From: an uncultured bacterium
Lineage (GTDB): Bacteria; Cyanobacteriota; Vampirovibrionia; Gastranaerophilales; Gastranaerophilaceae
NCBI GenBank assembly: GCA_902788575.1
Contig: CADAKY010000008.1
Location: 1-64,000, forward strand
DNA: 64,000 nucleotides
Direction: 5' to 3'
Positions 7,222 to 41,563 of this stretch are shown in pieces. Every line of letters begins with the position of its first letter. Position 1 is the first letter of the stretch. The notes beneath the pieces were generated by a model that made no database searches, was not told the origin of the DNA, and saw only the letters and a program-made list of their open reading frames with translations. The position numbers and the translations under genes are program-made.

Positions 7222-7287
7222 TTCTAAATAACTAGCAAAAAAAGATTTGAGAAGTTTTAAATTATATATATAGGAGTGGTGTATCAT

Positions 7288-9516
7288 ATGCGGGTACAAA
7301 GGATAGAAAGCAACAGTATAAATCGTAACAGACAAAACAGAACATCTTTCAAAAGACAGTGGGCGGAGCATGTGAGCTGGGGGGCGAATTATATAAAAAA
7401 ATCAGGAAAAACGAATTTTAAGTTGTTTACGTTTCCGGATGCGCAAAAAGTGTTTGTTGAAGTAGCTGACAGAGCGGTCGTAGGCTTATCCGGAATGAAA
7501 GAAAGAATTGTACAGGTTATGGCAGTTGCCGGTGCGGCACTTTCTATTAATCAAATTTTACCGAAAGATAAAAACTCTAAAATATATGAAATGGAACATA
7601 AAGGTGACGGAATTTATGAAAAGAATGGTGTTTTGTCAAAAGCCGGTGATAAGTACAGATATATAATTATTGATAAAAATAATAATGTAAACTTAGTAAA
7701 GGATCCTTATTCAAAAGAGCAGGATGATATAAACGGATGGAGTTCTGTATATGACCAGTCTGAATATACTTGGAAAAATACAGTGTGGGATAAAGACCCC
7801 AGAAAAATTAAAAGAATTCCGTCTGAAAAGCAGCGCGGATTGGAAAGACTTATTATTGATGAAATAAATATACCGACTTTATCAAAAGAAGGTACTTTTG
7901 AAGCTGCATTGTCAAAAATTGATGAAATAGCTGAACAGGGAATTGCAACCGCAATAGAACTTTTGCCTGTAGAAAATACGTATTCACTTCAGTGGGGATA
8001 CGACGGCGTAGATAAATTTGCGGTTAATTCAAAAATGGGCGGTCCTGATAAGTTAAAAGAATTGATTGATTATGCACATGGAAAGGGGTTAAATGTAATA
8101 ATGGATATGGTTCCGAACCATATCGGGCCGGATGGTGATTATCTTCCCCAGACCGGACCTTATGAAAGAGGGGCAGGAATTTTTGGCGGTGAATTTAATT
8201 ATGAAGGCAAAAATAACAAATATGTCAGAGATTATATGGTAAATGCTGCGCTTTGGTGGGCTAATGAATTCAAAGTAGACGGTATAAGACTTGATATGAC
8301 TAAAATGTGCGGTTCGGATTATTTGTTAAAACAGATTGTTTCAGAAGTTAATGAACATAATCCAAATGTATTTCTTATTGCGGAAGATGCACGAGAAAAT
8401 AAAGAATCTGTAACCAGATATGATATTGAAAAATCCGATCATAAAGATGAATTGGAATTTATTGATACACAGGTGGATTTTATAGCAAATAAAGGCTGGC
8501 GTTCGACCCCTGGTGATATCGGTTTTGATTCAGAATGGGATTTTAGATTTATGCATACTTTGAAAAATGCTGTTATTAGCGGCACAAATTTGGAAACGCT
8601 TGATGACAGGATAAAGAATTCCGGATTTAGAGTAAAATACGTAATGAGCCATGATGAAATCGGAAATGAAGACGGAACAAGGTTAATACCGAAAATTATT
8701 TCACGGCACTTGGATTTATACAATAAAGTAATCGGCAATAATGATGCAGAAAAAGGACAAAGAGCCGCATATGCTGCTCAAAAAATTTGCGAACTTGCTG
8801 CAACGGAAGAATTTCTTAATATGGATAATGATGCTCTTAAGCAAGCTGAAGAATCAATCGGATTGTGTACATTTGTAGAAAAAGAAGAAATTATAAAGGC
8901 ATTATATACTGCTCTTGCAAGACAAAAATTGGCATTCGGAACTGTAATGACAGTTCCCGGGCCTAAAATGTTTTTTCAGGGGGATGAATTTGGTGATTTT
9001 TCGAATTTTAAATTTTTCCGTACTTTCTCAAATCCTCAAGCAGAGCAGCAACGTTCAGAAATTATAGCGCAAAAAGGGTATGATACAGCAGAAGATGTTG
9101 CAAGACCTGATTGTATTTTGGGAAGAGTTTCTCATGAAGGATTACTTGTGAATGTTCCGACAAAATTACGTCATTTCAATAAGACGCTGGTAAATCTTCT
9201 TCAACAGCATCCTGCATTAGCAAAAGGAGATATTGTAGGTACTTTTAATGACTATAACCATAATGTTCATATTCATCACTTAAAAGATGGTAATGAAGAA
9301 ATATTGGTAATTAAAAACTTTGGTGAAGGTTTTCATGATAAAAGCTACAGCTATTATGGATTCCCTCAAAACAGTACTTGGAAAGAAATATTTTCAAGTG
9401 ACTGTGAAGAATTTGGCGGTTCAAATTATGCAAATAAAGGTCGCTCAGATATAACAAATACAAATCAGAATCTGTCGCTTGCACCAAACAGTTTTATTAT
9501 TCTTGAAAAGATATAA
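7288..9516 (+). CDS. GH13 alpha-amylase family enzyme (branching-enzyme/trehalohydrolase-like)
   Basis: 742 residues. An N-terminal beta-sandwich (CBM48-like, about residues 25-140) is followed by a GH13 barrel. The four conserved regions are present: MDMVPNH (272-278), GIRLD with nucleophile D336, IAED with acid/base E366, and SHDE with H455-D456. The YDGVDKFAVNSKMGGPDKLKELIDYAH stretch fits the GlgB/TreZ subgroup, so glycogen branching or trehalose-type hydrolysis are the main options; I cannot choose. The frame opens at GTG 7276, but AGGAG at 7272-7276 places initiation at ATG 7288. The N-terminus (NRQNRTSFKRQ) resembles that of the GH77 enzyme at 56510-58297. Confidence 0.88.
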   Translation: MRVQRIESNSINRNRQNRTSFKRQWAEHVSWGANYIKKSGKTNFKLFTFPDAQKVFVEVADRAVVGLSGMKERIVQVMAVAGAALSINQILPKDKNSKIYEMEHKGDGIYEKNGVLSKAGDKYRYIIIDKNNNVNLVKDPYSKEQDDINGWSSVYDQSEYTWKNTVWDKDPRKIKRIPSEKQRGLERLIIDEINIPTLSKEGTFEAALSKIDEIAEQGIATAIELLPVENTYSLQWGYDGVDKFAVNSKMGGPDKLKELIDYAHGKGLNVIMDMVPNHIGPDGDYLPQTGPYERGAGIFGGEFNYEGKNNKYVRDYMVNAALWWANEFKVDGIRLDMTKMCGSDYLLKQIVSEVNEHNPNVFLIAEDARENKESVTRYDIEKSDHKDELEFIDTQVDFIANKGWRSTPGDIGFDSEWDFRFMHTLKNAVISGTNLETLDDRIKNSGFRVKYVMSHDEIGNEDGTRLIPKIISRHLDLYNKVIGNNDAEKGQRAAYAAQKICELAATEEFLNMDNDALKQAEESIGLCTFVEKEEIIKALYTALARQKLAFGTVMTVPGPKMFFQGDEFGDFSNFKFFRTFSNPQAEQQRSEIIAQKGYDTAEDVARPDCILGRVSHEGLLVNVPTKLRHFNKTLVNLLQQHPALAKGDIVGTFNDYNHNVHIHHLKDGNEEILVIKNFGEGFHDKSYSYYGFPQNSTWKEIFSSDCEEFGGSNYANKGRSDITNTNQNLSLAPNSFIILEKI

Positions 9517-9519
9517 CGC

Positions 9520-9547
9520 TTTACAAAAATATTGAGCGTGTTATCAT
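9520..9547 (+). promoter_or_regulatory. promoter before the His-rich leader ORF
   Basis: TTTACA (9520-9525), 16-base spacer, TATCAT (9542-9547). Transcription would start near 9554, just ahead of the AAAAGGGA ribosome site of the leader ORF. Confidence 0.45.
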
Positions 9548-9569
9548 AGAACTATAAAAGGGAAAACCA

Positions 9570-9626
9570 ATGACATTTAATCTAAGACATCATCATACTC
9601 ATCATACAGACCCGAAAGAGTCTTGA
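9570..9626 (+). CDS. His-rich leader peptide ORF (attenuator-type)
   Basis: 18-codon ORF encoding MTFNLRHHHTHHTDPKES, preceded by AAAAGGGA at good spacing. Five of six consecutive codons are His. It resembles the enterobacterial his operon leader peptide in having a short N-terminus, a His run and then Asp-Pro. Codons 2-6 contain one arm of an 11-bp stem (9575-9585 with 9696-9706) and the last codons contain one arm of a 10-bp stem (9611-9620 with 9664-9673), so translation would alter the RNA structure. The downstream gene is not a known histidine gene but an unknown membrane protein. Translation is inferred, not shown. Confidence 0.65.
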   Translation: MTFNLRHHHTHHTDPKES

Positions 9627-9706
9627 GTTTTGTTGTTGTCTTTTCTAAAACTCTTTTAATCGGCTCTTTCGGGAGAATTTAAAAGACCAAATGAGTTAGA
9701 TTAAAT
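9575..9706 (+). promoter_or_regulatory. structured RNA leader overlapping the His-rich ORF
   Basis: Nested perfect stems. P1 pairs ATTTAATCTAA (9575-9585) with TTAGATTAAAT (9696-9706). P2 pairs CCCGAAAGAG (9611-9620) with CTCTTTCGGG (9664-9673). P3 pairs GAGTTTT (9625-9631) with AAAACTC (9647-9653). A competing stem, TCTTTTAA (9652-9659) with TTAAAAGA (9679-9686), cannot coexist with all of them. The ribosome site GGAG of the downstream gene (9707-9710) directly follows P1. There is no strong T run, so the control may be translational or Rho-linked rather than intrinsic termination. Confidence 0.6.
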
Positions 9707-9717
9707 GGAGAAAAAAG

Positions 9718-10890
9718 ATGTCACTAGTAAATATAATATCAGCTATCGGTAATAATTCGAGTATTTATCCTCTTATCGTCAGGGATTGCGGGATTGAAGT
9801 CCCTTCAAAGGTTGCGCTGACTTATCGTCAGAATCTTAAAGATTCACCGGAAATGGCAAAGAATGCTACAAGAGAAAGATTAATTGATGAATACACAACA
9901 TCGGCAGTTTGGCTCGGCGGGATTCCTGTTATCAATAAACTTTGTGATTGGGGGATTGAAAAAGCAGGCTTCAATCCGGAAATTAATGCGGAACTGTATA
10001 AAGAACGCTCCAATCAGGGAATCAAATTTAATATAGAAAAATTTAAAGGTAAAGCAGACAAAGAAGTTGCAGAGCTTGAAAAAGCACTTGCTAAAAAATC
10101 AACTTATCAAAAACTTTTTGCAGGAAAATTTATTCTTTCTACTGCAATTCCGATTGCTTTAATGGGATATATTATTCCGAAATTAAATTTCAAACTTACT
10201 GAAAGCCTTCGAAAAAACCAAAAGAAAACAGATGAAAAGAAGGGGCAGAATGTTTCTTTTAAAGGCTTAACATCTGTTCTTGCAAATATGTCCACAGTTA
10301 ATAAAATGGCGGTTACAGACGGAGGATACGCCGTCGGAAGAGTTTATACGGGAAGAAATAAATATGAGCAACTGGAAATGTCTTTCAAAATGGCAGGCAT
10401 GATGTTTTTAAACTTTCTTGCTCCGATTTGGATAGCAAACGGTTTGGATAAACTTTCAAAAATATTATTTAATACAAATGTTAATCTTGACCCCAAGCTT
10501 TTAAACAAAGGAAGTGAATTAAAAAATATTGAAATTCCCAAAGAAAATATTATTGAATTTTTGGATAAAAATCCCGAATCAAAATTTGCAAAACTGTGTG
10601 AAGAATATTGTGGTGTTAAATATCTGAAAAACAGAATCAGAGACCCTAGAGCTTACGTTGATGAAAAGAAAATTGAAGCATTTAAAAAAGAATTACAAAA
10701 ATTTATATCTGAAGCAAATAATAGCGGAAATATTGAAAAATATTCAAAGAAAGCATTAAAAGTAAAATCTGCAAACATAATAGCAAATATTGGTATAAGT
10801 AGTTTTCTGCTTGCTTTTGCGCTTCCGAAAGCTACATTCTGGCTGAGAGAAAAAGTTACAGGTTCAAAAGCTGAACCCGGACTTATGTAA
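9718..10890 (+). CDS. unknown membrane-associated protein, paralogue A (His leader)
   Basis: 390 residues, unknown function. Probable membrane segments lie near residues 136-156 (STAIPIALMGYIIP), 226-245 (FLNFLAPIWIANG) and 356-378 (ISSFLLAFALPKATFWL). It is homologous to the 483-residue protein at 40112-41563: shared features are the LVN-x-IS start, a GI(E/D)-(V/L) plus TY segment, an F(K/T)G...GR...N-x-x-(Q/E)L-x-E block before FLN(F/W)L, and a C-terminal LPK-x3-W-(L/M). It has a GGAG ribosome site and lies directly after the His-rich leader ORF. Possible roles such as transport or effector function are guesses. The gene is followed by a strong bidirectional terminator. Confidence 0.75.
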   Translation: MSLVNIISAIGNNSSIYPLIVRDCGIEVPSKVALTYRQNLKDSPEMAKNATRERLIDEYTTSAVWLGGIPVINKLCDWGIEKAGFNPEINAELYKERSNQGIKFNIEKFKGKADKEVAELEKALAKKSTYQKLFAGKFILSTAIPIALMGYIIPKLNFKLTESLRKNQKKTDEKKGQNVSFKGLTSVLANMSTVNKMAVTDGGYAVGRVYTGRNKYEQLEMSFKMAGMMFLNFLAPIWIANGLDKLSKILFNTNVNLDPKLLNKGSELKNIEIPKENIIEFLDKNPESKFAKLCEEYCGVKYLKNRIRDPRAYVDEKKIEAFKKELQKFISEANNSGNIEKYSKKALKVKSANIIANIGISSFLLAFALPKATFWLREKVTGSKAEPGLM

Positions 10891-10901
10891 AATTTGCTTA
10901 A

Positions 10902-10937
10902 AAAAGAGGTTGTCCGCTTTTGGGGACAACCTCTTTT
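10902..10937. terminator. bidirectional terminator between paralogue A and hppA
   Basis: AAAAGAGGTTGTCC (10902-10915) pairs perfectly with GGACAACCTCTTTT (10924-10937). The stem is 14 bp with A and T runs at its ends, serving both converging genes. Confidence 0.85.
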
Positions 10938-10956: not shown

Positions 10957-13374
10957 TTACTCATCCTTTTTTGAAGGAATTCTCATTGCATAGAATGAAC
11001 GAATTACAAAGAACAATGCAAGAATTAAGAATACAACGCCTGCTATTTTTGCATTCTCTTTAAATGCAGGAGCAATGGCAATTTCCATTGCCAAAAGTCC
11101 GAACAGAGTTGTAAACTTGATAATCGGGTTCATTGCAACAGATGATGTGTCTTTGAAAGGGTCACCGACCGTATCACCGACAACTGTCGAAGCGTGAAGG
11201 TCAGTTCCTTTTTCCGCCATATCAACTTCTACAATTTTCTTTGCGTTATCCCAGCAGCCGCCTGCGTTTGCCATAAATACAGCTTGGAACAAACCGAATA
11301 CCGCAATTGCAATCAGATAGCTTACAAAGAATGCAACAGGAGCGTTGTCTTCACCCATCGGTGCAGACAAACACGCAAGAGCAAGCGCGAATGCAAATAA
11401 TGCGATAAAGATATTGTACATACCTTTTTGCGCATATTGAGTACAAATCTTAACAACTTCTTTTGAATTTGAAAGGTTTGCGCTCTTTTCATCCGCTTCG
11501 CCTAATTTGATGTTGTCTTTAATATATTCAACAGCTCTGTATGCACCTGTTGTAACAGCCTGCATAGAAGCTCCTGAGAACCAGTAAATTACAGCGCCGC
11601 CGGCGATAAAACCAAGCAGTGTGTATGGGTTCAGTAAGTTTAGAATCATTTCCGGTGTAATACCCAATGTTTCTTTGATTACAAGAATCAATGAGAAAAT
11701 CATTGTTGTAGCACCAACTACCGCAGTACCGATAAGAACCGGTTTTGAAGTAGCTTTGAATGTGTTGCCTGCACCGTCGTTTTCTTCAAGGTATTTCTTT
11801 GCATTATCGAAATCCGGTGTGAATCCGTAGTATTTTTCAATACCTTCTTTTACTCCGTCAATTTCTTCTATCAAAGATAATTCATAAACTGATTGAGCGT
11901 TATCTGTAACAGGGCCGTATGAATCTACCGCAATTGTTACAGGTCCCATTCCCAAGAAACCGAACGCAACAAGACCAAATGCAAATACTGACGGGTAAAT
12001 CATTACATCTGTAGGAATGTTTAAGCTTGCAAAGTATGCAAGACCCATCAATAGTACAACAATTGCGCCTATCCAGAAACCGGAGAAGTTGCCTGATACA
12101 ATACCTGAAAGGATTGTAAGAGATGCTCCGCCTTCTTTTGAAGCTACAACAACTTCGTGAGTGTGTTTAGCTTTAGGTGAAGTGAATACCTTTGTTGCTT
12201 CCGGTATAAGTGCAGCACCCAAAGTACCGCAGGAAATTATGATTGAAAGAACCAGCCACAAGTTTGCAGGAAGTTCGCTCAATAAATAATTACTTACACC
12301 AAATGTCATGCAGATAGAAAGGATTGATGTTATCCAGACTAAATTTGTCAAAGGTGCTTCAAAATCAAATTTCTTAGTTATTTTTGAATAAATTTTTGTA
12401 ATAAATCCGTTAATTTCGTAAGAAATTACAGATGTAATAATCATCAGGAATCTCATTGTGAAAATCCATGCAAGGAGTTGAACCTGATAATCTTTAAATA
12501 CGCCGAGAAGAATGAAGCTTACTAAAGCAACACCAGTTACACCGTAAGTTTCAAATCCGTCAGCAGTCGGTCCGATTGAATCGCCGGCATTGTCACCTGT
12601 GCAATCTGCAATAACACCGGGGTTACGCGGGTCGTCTTCTTTGATGCCGAATTGAATTTTCATCAAATCTGATCCGATATCTGCAATTTTTGTAAAAATA
12701 CCGCCTGCAACACGAAGAGCAGATGCGCCTAATGATTCACCTATAGCGAAACCAATAAAGCAAGCACCGGCAAGTTCACCCGGAACAAATAAAAGGATTA
12801 CAAGCATCATAATTAGTTCTATTGATACAAGTAATACACCAATACTCATACCTGCTTTTAAAGGTATGTTCAAAATATTAAGCGGGTTGCCCTTAAGAGC
12901 GGTAAATGCAGTTCTTGAGTTTGCAAGCGTGTTCATTCTGATACCGAACCAAGCTACCAAATATGAGCCTAAAATACCCAGAATTGACCATCCCAAGATT
13001 ATAAGAACGGATTTGATTTCCATTCCCTGAAGATACCAGAAATAAAACGCAATACATAAACCTATCAAAACTTCTAACATAAGTAAAAATTTACCTTGTT
13101 GTACAAGATAAGTTTTGCAGGTTTCAAAAATTGTGTTACCTACAGAAGCCATTGCTTCGTGTACTTCTACTTTTTTAACTCTTGTGAATGCCCAAAGTCC
13201 CCAAAGCACACCGCATACAGATACGATTAAACCAATCAGCAAAAGATTGTAGCTGAACGGATTTTCCGCTTTGATATTCGGAACCACAAGAGAAGCTTCT
13301 CCTGCAAATACAGGAGCAGATAAAATCATTGCCGTGAGAGCCATAGCAAATGACTTAACAGTTTTTTTCAACAT
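10957..13374 (-). CDS. hppA: membrane-bound proton-pumping pyrophosphatase, probably K+-independent
   Basis: Couples hydrolysis of pyrophosphate to ion pumping across the membrane. 805 residues with about 16 hydrophobic segments. Conserved substrate-binding acidic motifs are present around DIGSDLMKIQFGIKEDDPRNPGVIADCTGDNAGD and near the C-terminus in GDTVGDPFKDTS. In this family the residue after GNT-x decides K+ dependence; here it reads GNTFKAT, with Lys, which marks K+-independent H+-pumps. The cytosolic loop before it is longer than usual (DNAQSVYELS... through a KYYGFTPDFDNAKKYLEEND segment). A hydrophobic N-terminus ending PVFAGEAS may be a cleaved signal. Start chosen at the ATG after AAGGAGAG; the frame extends 30 bases further. 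Confidence 0.95.
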   Translation of the reverse strand: MLKKTVKSFAMALTAMILSAPVFAGEASLVVPNIKAENPFSYNLLLIGLIVSVCGVLWGLWAFTRVKKVEVHEAMASVGNTIFETCKTYLVQQGKFLLMLEVLIGLCIAFYFWYLQGMEIKSVLIILGWSILGILGSYLVAWFGIRMNTLANSRTAFTALKGNPLNILNIPLKAGMSIGVLLVSIELIMMLVILLFVPGELAGACFIGFAIGESLGASALRVAGGIFTKIADIGSDLMKIQFGIKEDDPRNPGVIADCTGDNAGDSIGPTADGFETYGVTGVALVSFILLGVFKDYQVQLLAWIFTMRFLMIITSVISYEINGFITKIYSKITKKFDFEAPLTNLVWITSILSICMTFGVSNYLLSELPANLWLVLSIIISCGTLGAALIPEATKVFTSPKAKHTHEVVVASKEGGASLTILSGIVSGNFSGFWIGAIVVLLMGLAYFASLNIPTDVMIYPSVFAFGLVAFGFLGMGPVTIAVDSYGPVTDNAQSVYELSLIEEIDGVKEGIEKYYGFTPDFDNAKKYLEENDGAGNTFKATSKPVLIGTAVVGATTMIFSLILVIKETLGITPEMILNLLNPYTLLGFIAGGAVIYWFSGASMQAVTTGAYRAVEYIKDNIKLGEADEKSANLSNSKEVVKICTQYAQKGMYNIFIALFAFALALACLSAPMGEDNAPVAFFVSYLIAIAVFGLFQAVFMANAGGCWDNAKKIVEVDMAEKGTDLHASTVVGDTVGDPFKDTSSVAMNPIIKFTTLFGLLAMEIAIAPAFKENAKIAGVVFLILALFFVIRSFYAMRIPSKKDE

Positions 13375-13492
13375 ATTTCTCTCCTTATTTAAAAGTGATT
13401 TCAAACACTAATAAATATATTATATATAATTTATGAGAGAATAGCAAATTATATTTTTACCGGTTTTTATATATAAAAATGAAGGAGAAAAT

Positions 13493-39969: not shown

Positions 39970-40035
39970 ATGTATAATTTTACTAACAACTTAACTTGCT
40001 GCTGCTGTAAGATTCGATGTCGGAACTTACTTTAA
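39970..40035 (+). CDS. Cys-rich leader peptide ORF (attenuator)
   Basis: A 21-codon ORF starting MYNFTNNLTCCCCKIRC, with Cys codons 10-13 (39997-40008) and 17. AAAGGA (39957-39962) lies seven bases upstream. Its last codons (bases 40022-40033) form the antiterminator arm, so a ribosome finishing the peptide blocks antitermination while one stalled at the Cys codons leaves it free. This is the logic of trp/his-type attenuation. The downstream gene is an unknown membrane protein rather than a known cysteine gene. Confidence 0.72.
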   Translation: MYNFTNNLTCCCCKIRCRNLL

Positions 40036-40075
40036 TTTGGTATGCAGTTATTATAATAATGTTAAAATAAGTTCC
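40022..40075 (+). promoter_or_regulatory. antiterminator stem of the Cys-leader attenuator
   Basis: GGAACTTACTTT (40022-40033) pairs with AAAATAAGTTCC (40064-40075) with a single C-A mismatch, eight uninterrupted pairs being GGAACTTA/TAAGTTCC. The second strand is also the 5' arm of the terminator at 40066, so the two structures exclude each other. Confidence 0.65.
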
Positions 40076-40101
40076 TTTTACTAAGGAGCTTATTTTTTTT
40101 T
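40066..40101 (+). terminator. intrinsic terminator of the Cys-leader attenuator
   Basis: AATAAGTTCCTT (40066-40077) pairs with AAGGAGCTTATT (40083-40094): 12 bp with one G-U, followed by nine T. It ends one base before the GGAG ribosome site of the downstream gene, so it can only act as an attenuator of that gene. Confidence 0.85.
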
Positions 40102-40111
40102 GGAGATTTTT

Positions 40112-41563
40112 ATGTTAGTAAATAATATTTCAGGAGTGCTTGACGGGGCGCTTACAACAACTTTAAGAACTTTAGACAAAAATCCTATGGCAAATGCGGT
40201 CGGAATAGACCTCGTAGCTATGGTTGCGCCGAGAACTTATGTAGATACAAAAGAGAGAAATAAATATGCGGGTGCGGAAACTTTTTTCAGGGAATTTACC
40301 GGAACTTTAACTGTTTGCTTAAGCGCAAGCTGGTTTGCAAAAGGGATTTCTGTAATCGCAAATAAATTTATTGATAAGAAACATAAAATCAACACTTCTT
40401 CTTGGTTTTCGGATGAAAGCGTGAAATTTTTACAAGAAGGATATAAAAATTCAAATTCAATAAAGGAATATGTTTCAAATGTTATTAATACTCTTCCTGT
40501 AATATCAGGAAACATTGAAATCATAGATGAAAAAAGGTGGTTAAATTTTGATTGGGATAACCCTAAGTATAAAAATTTTCATAAAAAAATAAACAATAAA
40601 AACAGTCTAATTAATGTAATAACAGAAATTATAGAAGATGAAACTTTGACTTCTTCTGATAAACAAAAACTTGTAAAAATTCTTGATTTAAGGGTAACAA
40701 ATCTCACTCAATCCGATTCTGCTTTAGTAAAAATTGCTGATAAGCAATATTCAGGCTCTTTATCAAATCTGCTCAGAGATACAATTGATATGGGGCGAGA
40801 TGTGTTTTTAAAATCAAAACCTGAACAAGAAGTTCTTATTAAAAAAATTCTGAGAATTAACAGAATTAAAAGTATCGGAGCTCTTGCGGCGGCTTCTGCG
40901 CTCGGTCTTGCGAATCAATATATAAACAGAAAAATTACCGAAAAAAGAACGGGAACAAAAGGTTTTGTAGGTGATATTGACTATAAAGAAAAAGTTGCAA
41001 AAAAAGAGTCCTCAAAAGAAAAATCAAAATTATTTACACTTGAAAAAATTGCCGCAAGTCTTGGAATGGCAGTTATGGCAATAGCTGTAATGAAAGTAAA
41101 ATCACTTAAAGATTTTATAAAGAAACTTGAATTCACAGGCCCTGTTAATAGCGGAAACGTTATAAAAACAGTTTACGCATCGACTCTTATCGGCAGATTC
41201 TTAGCTTCTGACAATCAAGACGAACTTAGAGAAACTGTAATAAGAGATTATTTAGGTTTCTTAAATTGGTTGGTTCTCGGTGGTTTTGCAGCGAAAGGGG
41301 CGGCAAATATTTTAGATCCGAAAAGAGAAAATTTATTTAACGGCAATATAAAAGGTAAAGGCATAAAGAATTGGCTTGATAATATTTCATTAAAATCCCA
41401 AAATGAAATTGCAGTAAGAGGAAAAGAATTTGCGCGTAAAAACATGTGGAAAATAAATGCCGCACAAATAGCCGGACTCGCCTATTCAACGATTGCGCTC
41501 GGAATTTTATTACCTAAATTGAATATTTGGATGACAAAAAGAAAACACAAAAACGATAAATAA
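40112..41563 (+). CDS. unknown membrane-associated protein, paralogue B (Cys leader)
   Basis: 483 residues, unknown function, homologous to 9718-10890. The N-terminus MLVNNISGVL matches MSLVNIISAIG; both then have a GI(D/E)-(L/V) segment, TY, and later F(T/K)G, GR, an N-(Q/K)-x-E block, FLNWL and C-terminal LGILLPKLNIWM. Membrane segments are likely near residues 65-85, 250-265, 310-325, 395-415 and 450-470. The middle is about 90 residues longer than in paralogue A. The frame opens at TTG 40100, but that overlaps the terminator; GGAG at 40102-40105 supports ATG 40112. Expressed under the Cys attenuator. Confidence 0.75.
   Translation: MLVNNISGVLDGALTTTLRTLDKNPMANAVGIDLVAMVAPRTYVDTKERNKYAGAETFFREFTGTLTVCLSASWFAKGISVIANKFIDKKHKINTSSWFSDESVKFLQEGYKNSNSIKEYVSNVINTLPVISGNIEIIDEKRWLNFDWDNPKYKNFHKKINNKNSLINVITEIIEDETLTSSDKQKLVKILDLRVTNLTQSDSALVKIADKQYSGSLSNLLRDTIDMGRDVFLKSKPEQEVLIKKILRINRIKSIGALAAASALGLANQYINRKITEKRTGTKGFVGDIDYKEKVAKKESSKEKSKLFTLEKIAASLGMAVMAIAVMKVKSLKDFIKKLEFTGPVNSGNVIKTVYASTLIGRFLASDNQDELRETVIRDYLGFLNWLVLGGFAAKGAANILDPKRENLFNGNIKGKGIKNWLDNISLKSQNEIAVRGKEFARKNMWKINAAQIAGLAYSTIALGILLPKLNIWMTKRKHKNDK

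Follow-up and report, generated by a model that had tools for sequence, protein, structure and literature searches.

The enterobacterial his leader (HisL, RF00514) is a short ORF with consecutive His codons, followed just downstream by alternative structures and induced by a lack of charged tRNA-His. In Gram-positive bacteria, according to PMC9413887, histidine T-boxes, HisR, and His attenuators are found, and histidine auxotrophs possess T-box-controlled transporters (hisXYZ, yuiF). The LEU element of Actinobacteria, as described in PMC1262725, responds to leucine and lies upstream of leuA, its codon run itself pairing with the Shine–Dalgarno sequence.

The window, i.e., the whole stretch of 64,000 nt analysed here (positions 1-64,000 of contig CADAKY010000008.1, assembly GCA_902788575.1, from an uncultured Gastranaerophilaceae bacterium), contains at 9520-9717 a leader sharing these features with HisL, the induction being predicted. 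Unlike HisL, it governs a single membrane-protein gene rather than histidine biosynthesis, appears in this genus to hide the Shine–Dalgarno sequence instead of terminating transcription, and has an extra pseudoknot. At 9480-9780, the Rfam matches down to an E of 10 did not include His_leader (RF00514), nor did the window contain one at the gathering score, and the T-box covariance model gave no match at 9480-9780 or in the window. The LEU element (PMC1262725) differs from the window leader in its amino acid (leucine, not His), in the pairing of its codon run with the Shine–Dalgarno sequence, and in its lineage. The T-box-controlled histidine transporters (PMC9413887) follow the same physiological logic as the window locus; T-boxes, however, bind tRNA directly, whereas at the window locus the sensing of tRNA would fall to a translating ribosome, and the window gene belongs to no known transporter family. 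In the open-licence PMC literature (titles and abstract starts), no description of these leaders in Gastranaerophilales was found.

We propose, with a probability of roughly 0.8, that the region would act as a ribosome-mediated histidine attenuator on translation and that the His-free membrane protein would help auxotrophs acquire histidine, the latter part being the less certain. On comparative grounds, the assignment of a putative histidine attenuator to 9520-9717 is close to certain, and a translational output is likely in the window's genus. This would extend ribosome-mediated histidine attenuation to the Gastranaerophilales and to a gene outside histidine biosynthesis.

Organization of the locus and conservation of the leader ORF

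The leader and its gene form a single-gene unit (9520-10937), closed by an intrinsic terminator and flanked by a glycoside-hydrolase-like gene and a convergent H+-pyrophosphatase gene (Table 1). The HisL-like, His-rich ORF of 18 codons with its own ribosome site, which a sequence-only reading of this DNA had pointed out, is present. A promoter box similar to that of the window (TTTACN, 15-19 nt, TANNNT) precedes the leader in 23/29 genus leaders.

Table 1. Coordinates of the features at and around the His leader of the window.
Feature	Position	Strand	Remarks
Glycoside-hydrolase-like gene (5' neighbour)	7276-9516		Pfam alpha-amylase
Promoter	9520-9547	+	TTTACA-16-TATCAT, TG ahead of the -10
Ribosome site of leader ORF	9556-9563	+	AAAAGGGA
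His leader ORF	9570-9626	+	MTFNLRHHHTHHTDPKES; 18 codons; ATG 9570, stop TGA 9624-9626
His codons in leader ORF	9588-9596 and 9600-9605	+	
P1, 5' arm	9611-9622	+	CCCGAAAGAGTC; 5' half of the anti-sequestor; within leader ORF, directly 3' of His codons
P2, 5' arm	9625-9631	+	GAGTTTT; paired in relatives
Pseudoknot, 5' strand	9638-9644	+	GTCTTTT; in P2 loop
P2, 3' arm	9647-9653	+	AAAACTC; overlaps anti-Shine–Dalgarno side of P4
P4, 5' strand	9651-9666	+	CTCTTTTAATCGGCTC; sequestor
P1, 3' arm	9662-9673	+	GGCTCTTTCGGG; GGCTC common to P1 and P4
Pseudoknot, 3' strand	9681-9687	+	AAAAGAC
P4, 3' strand	9693-9710	+	GAGTTAGATTAAATGGAG; includes the gene's Shine–Dalgarno GGAG (9707-9710)
Regulated gene, 390-aa helical membrane protein	9718-10890	+	ATG 9718; matches no known family; zero His
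Intrinsic terminator	10902-10937	+	3' of membrane-protein gene
Convergent membrane H+-pyrophosphatase gene (3' neighbour)	10960-13404	-	

The leader DNA was retrieved from 28 of the 57 relatives searched (own genome counted), all 28 belonging to the window's genus, where it occurs in 28/34 members, in a single copy per genome save for one genome with two. Among the six remaining members, one (G031) has the leader according to the ORF search, and five lack a close orthologue. All 30 readable leader regions of the genus encode the His ORF, whose common form is MTxxxxKHHHTHxNPKGLGVL. One genome (G030), with leader and gene on separate contigs, was excluded from the 29-row alignment, and two gene fragments (L030, L032) were set aside.

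A wider scan yielded 80 loci in MAGs of rumen or gut origin. Many of these carry the name Gastranaerophilales or Melainabacteria, and the remaining ones bear general or evidently wrong labels; the protein identity is 60-83% in a nearer group and 46-52% in a second one. Two loci without upstream DNA (L117, L118) were excluded before counting, leaving 78. With any start codon allowed and no ribosome-site rule, an ORF containing three or more His lies upstream of the orthologous gene in 78/78 readable GTDB loci, and the same is true of 39/39 further orthologue loci in other genera of this family. The His codons are thus kept in frame among homologues, and the refuting outcome named by the sequence-only reading, a CAT run not conserved in frame, did not occur. 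Under a stricter rule (an ATG start, a ribosome site, a length of 8-45 aa, and no fewer than three His within 220 nt), an ORF was recovered from 62/78 orthologous upstream regions, 13/3,900 dinucleotide shuffles, and 1/78 reverse complements; the His codons of these 62 leaders are CAT 262 times and CAC 7 times. Leaders outside the window's genus have little in common apart from the His codons, and those of the second group retain almost nothing else (e.g., MFTPSVKRHHHNHHHCH, MENIKFAQKLHFAHHRIPKGF, and MKKLFDLKFHRHHHSDLI). The locus thus has the conserved, translatable small ORF rich in codons for a single amino acid that is expected of an attenuator.

Alternative structures of the leader RNA

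Covariation was assessed on the 29 genus leaders by comparing the pairing energy of each arm with its own partner and with the partners from other genomes, using 20,000 permutations for each element. For P1, the pseudoknot, and the whole P4, no permutation out of 20,000 was as good; related sequences not being independent, these figures are not strict probabilities and the tests show coupled variation. No excess covariation was detected among the 29 leaders for P2 (1,839/20,000 permutations as good) or for the upper, Shine–Dalgarno half of P4 (3,995/20,000). The pseudoknot pair changes from GTCTTTT/AAAAGAC in the window to GTTCTT/AAGAAC (G008) and CCTG/CAGG (G015), and the P4 core ATCGGCTC/GAGTACGAT becomes TGTGCTC/GAGTACA in G023. 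Since P1 and P4 both use GGCTC, they are mutually exclusive. The fold of the window leader as a single sequence is only modestly better than that of shuffles (z -1.43, 17/200 as good), so that the support for the RNA comes from comparison.

Both nested perfect stems described by the sequence-only reading exist, and they differ in their conservation. The 10-bp stem (9611-9620 with 9664-9673; 12 bp counting G-U) corresponds to P1 and displays the compensatory changes that were looked for. The outer 11-bp stem (9575-9585 with 9696-9706) is not conserved: it is strong only in the window sequence among the 29, with 8,918/20,000 permutations as good, and it was rejected as a functional element. The pseudoknot and the helix reaching the Shine–Dalgarno sequence had been overlooked.

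The first His codons are located 20, 17, and 14 nt 5' of P1 in the majority of the genus leaders aligned. The leading edge of a ribosome lies about 12-13 nt ahead, so a ribosome waiting on these codons should leave P1 free. The P1, P4, and pseudoknot permutations and this spacing agree with what an attenuator needs, i.e., exclusive structures whose first arm is free under a His-stalled ribosome. According to the proposed mechanism, under a shortage of charged tRNA-His the ribosome would wait on the His codons and leave P1 free; P1, P2, and the pseudoknot would then form, P4 would be blocked, and the membrane-protein gene would be translated. With plentiful histidine, the ribosome would run across the P1 arm, P4 would form, and the Shine–Dalgarno sequence would be hidden.

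Each of the 29 leaders was then folded with the ribosome footprint masked, a model that leaves pseudoknots and ribosome bulk outside. The Shine–Dalgarno sequence was more accessible with the ribosome on the His codons than with the ribosome on the P1 arm in 29/29 leaders (medians 0.26 vs. 0.00007). Simple masking, however, yields no clean OFF state across the 29: the median accessibility is 0.024 for the free RNA and 0.43 for a ribosome on the stop codon, the latter exceeding the His stall in 21/29, mostly because the anti-Shine–Dalgarno arm is covered. The window's own sequence is consistent with the model (0.25 for the His stall, 0.002 for the P1 arm, 0.003 for the stop codon, 0.024 free); elsewhere the OFF state might be kinetic, with P4 nucleating while the ribosome covers P1 and closing on its departure. 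The anti-Shine–Dalgarno pairing beats shuffles at the 5% level in 12/29 leaders, the window's own sequence (0.41) not being one of them.

A transcription terminator was found in 0/29 leaders of the window's genus by a strict rule. This fits the earlier remark that no T run follows a stem, the T run being missing, in our interpretation, because attenuation is here translational rather than transcriptional. The situation is different in other genera, for which 65 distinct upstream regions were compared with 1,300 shuffles. P1 again begins just after the His codons, with a median of -27.0 kcal/mol vs. -15.0 for shuffles, and falls below the 1% shuffle quantile in 50/65 regions. The strict terminator occurs in 22/65 regions (43/65 failing the rule) and in 4/1,300 shuffles; in 22/22 cases the 5' arm of this terminator shares sequence with the 3' strand of P1, both features occurring together in 1/1,300 shuffles. 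An example is G142, where CCTGAAAAGACTG with CGGTCTTTTCAGG stands against AAAGCGGTCTTTT...AAAAAGACCGCTTTTTT. A looser terminator rule, satisfied by 47/65 real regions and also by 557/1,300 shuffles, was abandoned, and a third rule gave 49/65 regions, with no shuffle control. Judging from the sequences, P1 is a predicted antiterminator in many relatives and a predicted anti-sequestor in the window's genus, orthologous leaders ending in either a terminator or a Shine–Dalgarno sequestor. Taken together, the conserved His ORF, the covarying P1, pseudoknot, and P4, and the terminator pairs of the relatives argue for a histidine attenuator whose output is probably translational in the genus and, in many of the relatives, transcriptional.

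The membrane protein and the loss of histidine biosynthesis

The 390-aa protein retrieved nothing over the cut-off from Pfam and NCBIfam (the top Pfam hit had an E of 0.16, and the top NCBIfam hit scored 15.9 bits against a cut-off of 100), in agreement with its previous description as an unknown membrane protein, and a sequence search gave no solved relative. The best model (52-row alignment) is all-helical, with a mean pLDDT of 79.5 and a pTM of 0.69. About four segments are strongly hydrophobic. An internal repeat is likely, since hhalign aligned one half of the protein to the other with a probability of 89.5% (E 2e-6). Fold searches with two models vs. PDB and BFVD returned no significant match (best Foldseek E for the first model 0.88). 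With VIA-align, the top row reached a Z of 7.4 (101 residues, rmsd 5.3) and a Na+-PPase one of 5.8 (197 residues), both in a range common for helical models; the Na+-PPase rows were not accepted as relatives. The weak structural rows include membrane pyrophosphatases, and the convergent neighbour is an H+-pyrophosphatase, probably a coincidence. Transport by this protein was backed neither by a family or sequence match nor by a convincing similarity of fold in Pfam, NCBIfam, PDB, and BFVD.

The amino acid composition is peculiar: among the 18,351 residues of 45 His-leader orthologues, 6 are His, and the window's own protein contains none. By comparison, seven homologues without His leaders have 30 His in 3,106 residues (0.97%), and the 39 ORFs of the window that are 250 aa or longer, taken from a mechanical list and not from annotated genes, average 1.22% His, 2/39 lacking it. 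Fisher's test vs. the three pooled comparison groups gave p 6e-44 for the depletion, on residues that are not independent. A scarcity of the cognate amino acid has been described for amino acid biosynthetic pathways (PMC4209129).

The distribution of the gene was checked in 241 genomes of the order, calling it present at a best E of 3.3e-69 or better and absent in the 16 genomes with weaker homologues only. The gene occurs in 142 genomes and hisD in 76, the genomes with hisG being exactly these 76. Among genomes with the gene, hisD is absent from 139 and present in 3; among those without it, hisD is absent from 26 and present in 73 (p 2.5e-35). The trpA gene, over the cut-off in 39 genomes, never accompanies the gene (0/142), which implies that general genome reduction contributes to the pattern; the association nevertheless persists in trpA-negative genomes (139, 3, 26, 34; p 7.7e-19). 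Genera g30, g33, and g36 hold both states, and the association is also internal to them (p 1.9e-9 among the genomes listed). ArgG was unusable as a control family, partial matches being widespread. The host family of gut bacteria is mostly unable to make histidine.

The exceptions are the 26 genomes with neither gene nor pathway and the three gene-bearing genomes that keep hisD and hisG, all three of which retain the His leader. In one genome, G193 (contig C10, 29015-30756), the hisG frame has 231 aa vs. roughly 290-300 aa in most others, and the adjoining hisD scores 601 bits vs. at most 515 elsewhere. This far higher score, beside a short hisG, suggests a re-acquired operon; the his genes of G193 look like either horizontal re-acquisition or contamination.

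The sequence-only reading had called the regulated gene a non-histidine one. Given that its distribution follows the loss of the histidine pathway and that its product lacks His, this label probably does not hold in substance. The pathway and composition data are best read as pointing to a role in histidine acquisition: most likely, the protein would be made under histidine limitation and would help histidine auxotrophs, possibly through uptake of histidine or of His-containing peptides. The substrate prediction draws on three lines, namely the regulatory codons, the pathway loss, and the depletion of the same residue. If it is right, histidine auxotrophs among these gut bacteria would possess a new kind of protein dedicated to acquiring histidine and induced by starvation.

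Cys and Ser leaders and the alternative readings

The window harbors another locus of this sort, in which a leader with a CCCC run (MYNFTNNLTCCCCKIRCRNLL, 39970-40035) precedes a gene for a 484-aa membrane protein (40109-41563), with an antiterminator/terminator arrangement of GGAACTTA with TAAGTTCC vs. AATAAGTTCC...GGAGCTTATTTTTTTT. It is probably the Cys counterpart of the His locus. Among 20 homologues of this gene, 6 have Cys-run leaders and 14 have Ser-run leaders (11 by script, 3 by eye). The 6 Cys-leader proteins contain 3 Cys in 2,818 residues (0.11%) vs. 0.77% in 11 Ser-leader proteins, which in turn are low in Ser (4.5% vs. 6.7%); these compositions support a residue depletion tracking the amino acid of the leader. 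Paralogues of the Cys-leader gene with Ser-run leaders were observed at L195-L207 and L209 (e.g., MKNLHFELANNSSSNSSKLQSGLE). His-type and Cys/Ser-type proteins may be remote relatives (hhalign probability 31%, E 5e-4, 59 columns; 5% with a single sequence). Tentatively, and with slightly less than even odds, the Gastranaerophilales might have an undescribed family, or several related families, of membrane proteins acquiring single amino acids, each with a cognate leader attenuator (His; Cys, 39970-41563; Ser paralogues) and purged of that residue. If so, the regulatory code would reveal the substrates of a transporter class absent from family libraries.

It is also conceivable, though unlikely, that the leader is a histidine attenuator and that the protein is a general envelope or stress protein made during histidine starvation. 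The matchless family and fold searches would suit such a protein, as would the four or so hydrophobic segments with an internal repeat, which correspond to no recognised transporter plan. However, the presence of the gene tracks the loss of the histidine pathway itself, within genera too, and the Cys and Ser leaders on relatives of the Cys-leader gene fit an amino-acid-specific supply better.

Two further explanations concern the leader. The peptide itself, through its own sequence or a metal bound by His, might arrest the ribosome, in place of a lack of charged tRNA-His; His clusters can indeed bind metals, and the genus leader is conserved beyond His (KHHHTHxNPKGLGVL). We consider this very improbable: NPKG is encoded by the P1 arm, so that RNA pairing explains its conservation, the flanking residues vary in distant relatives while the His run persists, and metal binding leaves the loss of hisD and hisG and the His-poor protein unexplained. 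As for a chance CAT repeat near unrelated hairpins, the weak single-sequence fold and the unconserved 11-bp stem would speak in its favour, yet a CAT microsatellite is ruled out by the in-frame conservation in the 78/78 and 39/39 loci, together with the shuffle counts (13/3,900), and covariation tells against it as well, so that this idea can be taken as already refuted.

A third kind of leader ends in WGL followed by the stop codon, mostly as LMNLxWGL-stop, and was seen by eye in 11/14 regions upstream of distant His-type homologues. These leaders are close to the gene start (L054-L058, L060, L061, L063, L065-L067); L063, on contig C5 of the window's own genome (G000), belongs to that genome's own paralogue of the His-type gene. 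The proteins downstream are only slightly low in Trp (0.61%), and the conservation of the C-terminus ahead of the stop codon hints at either an arrest peptide or a constraint imposed by a hairpin.
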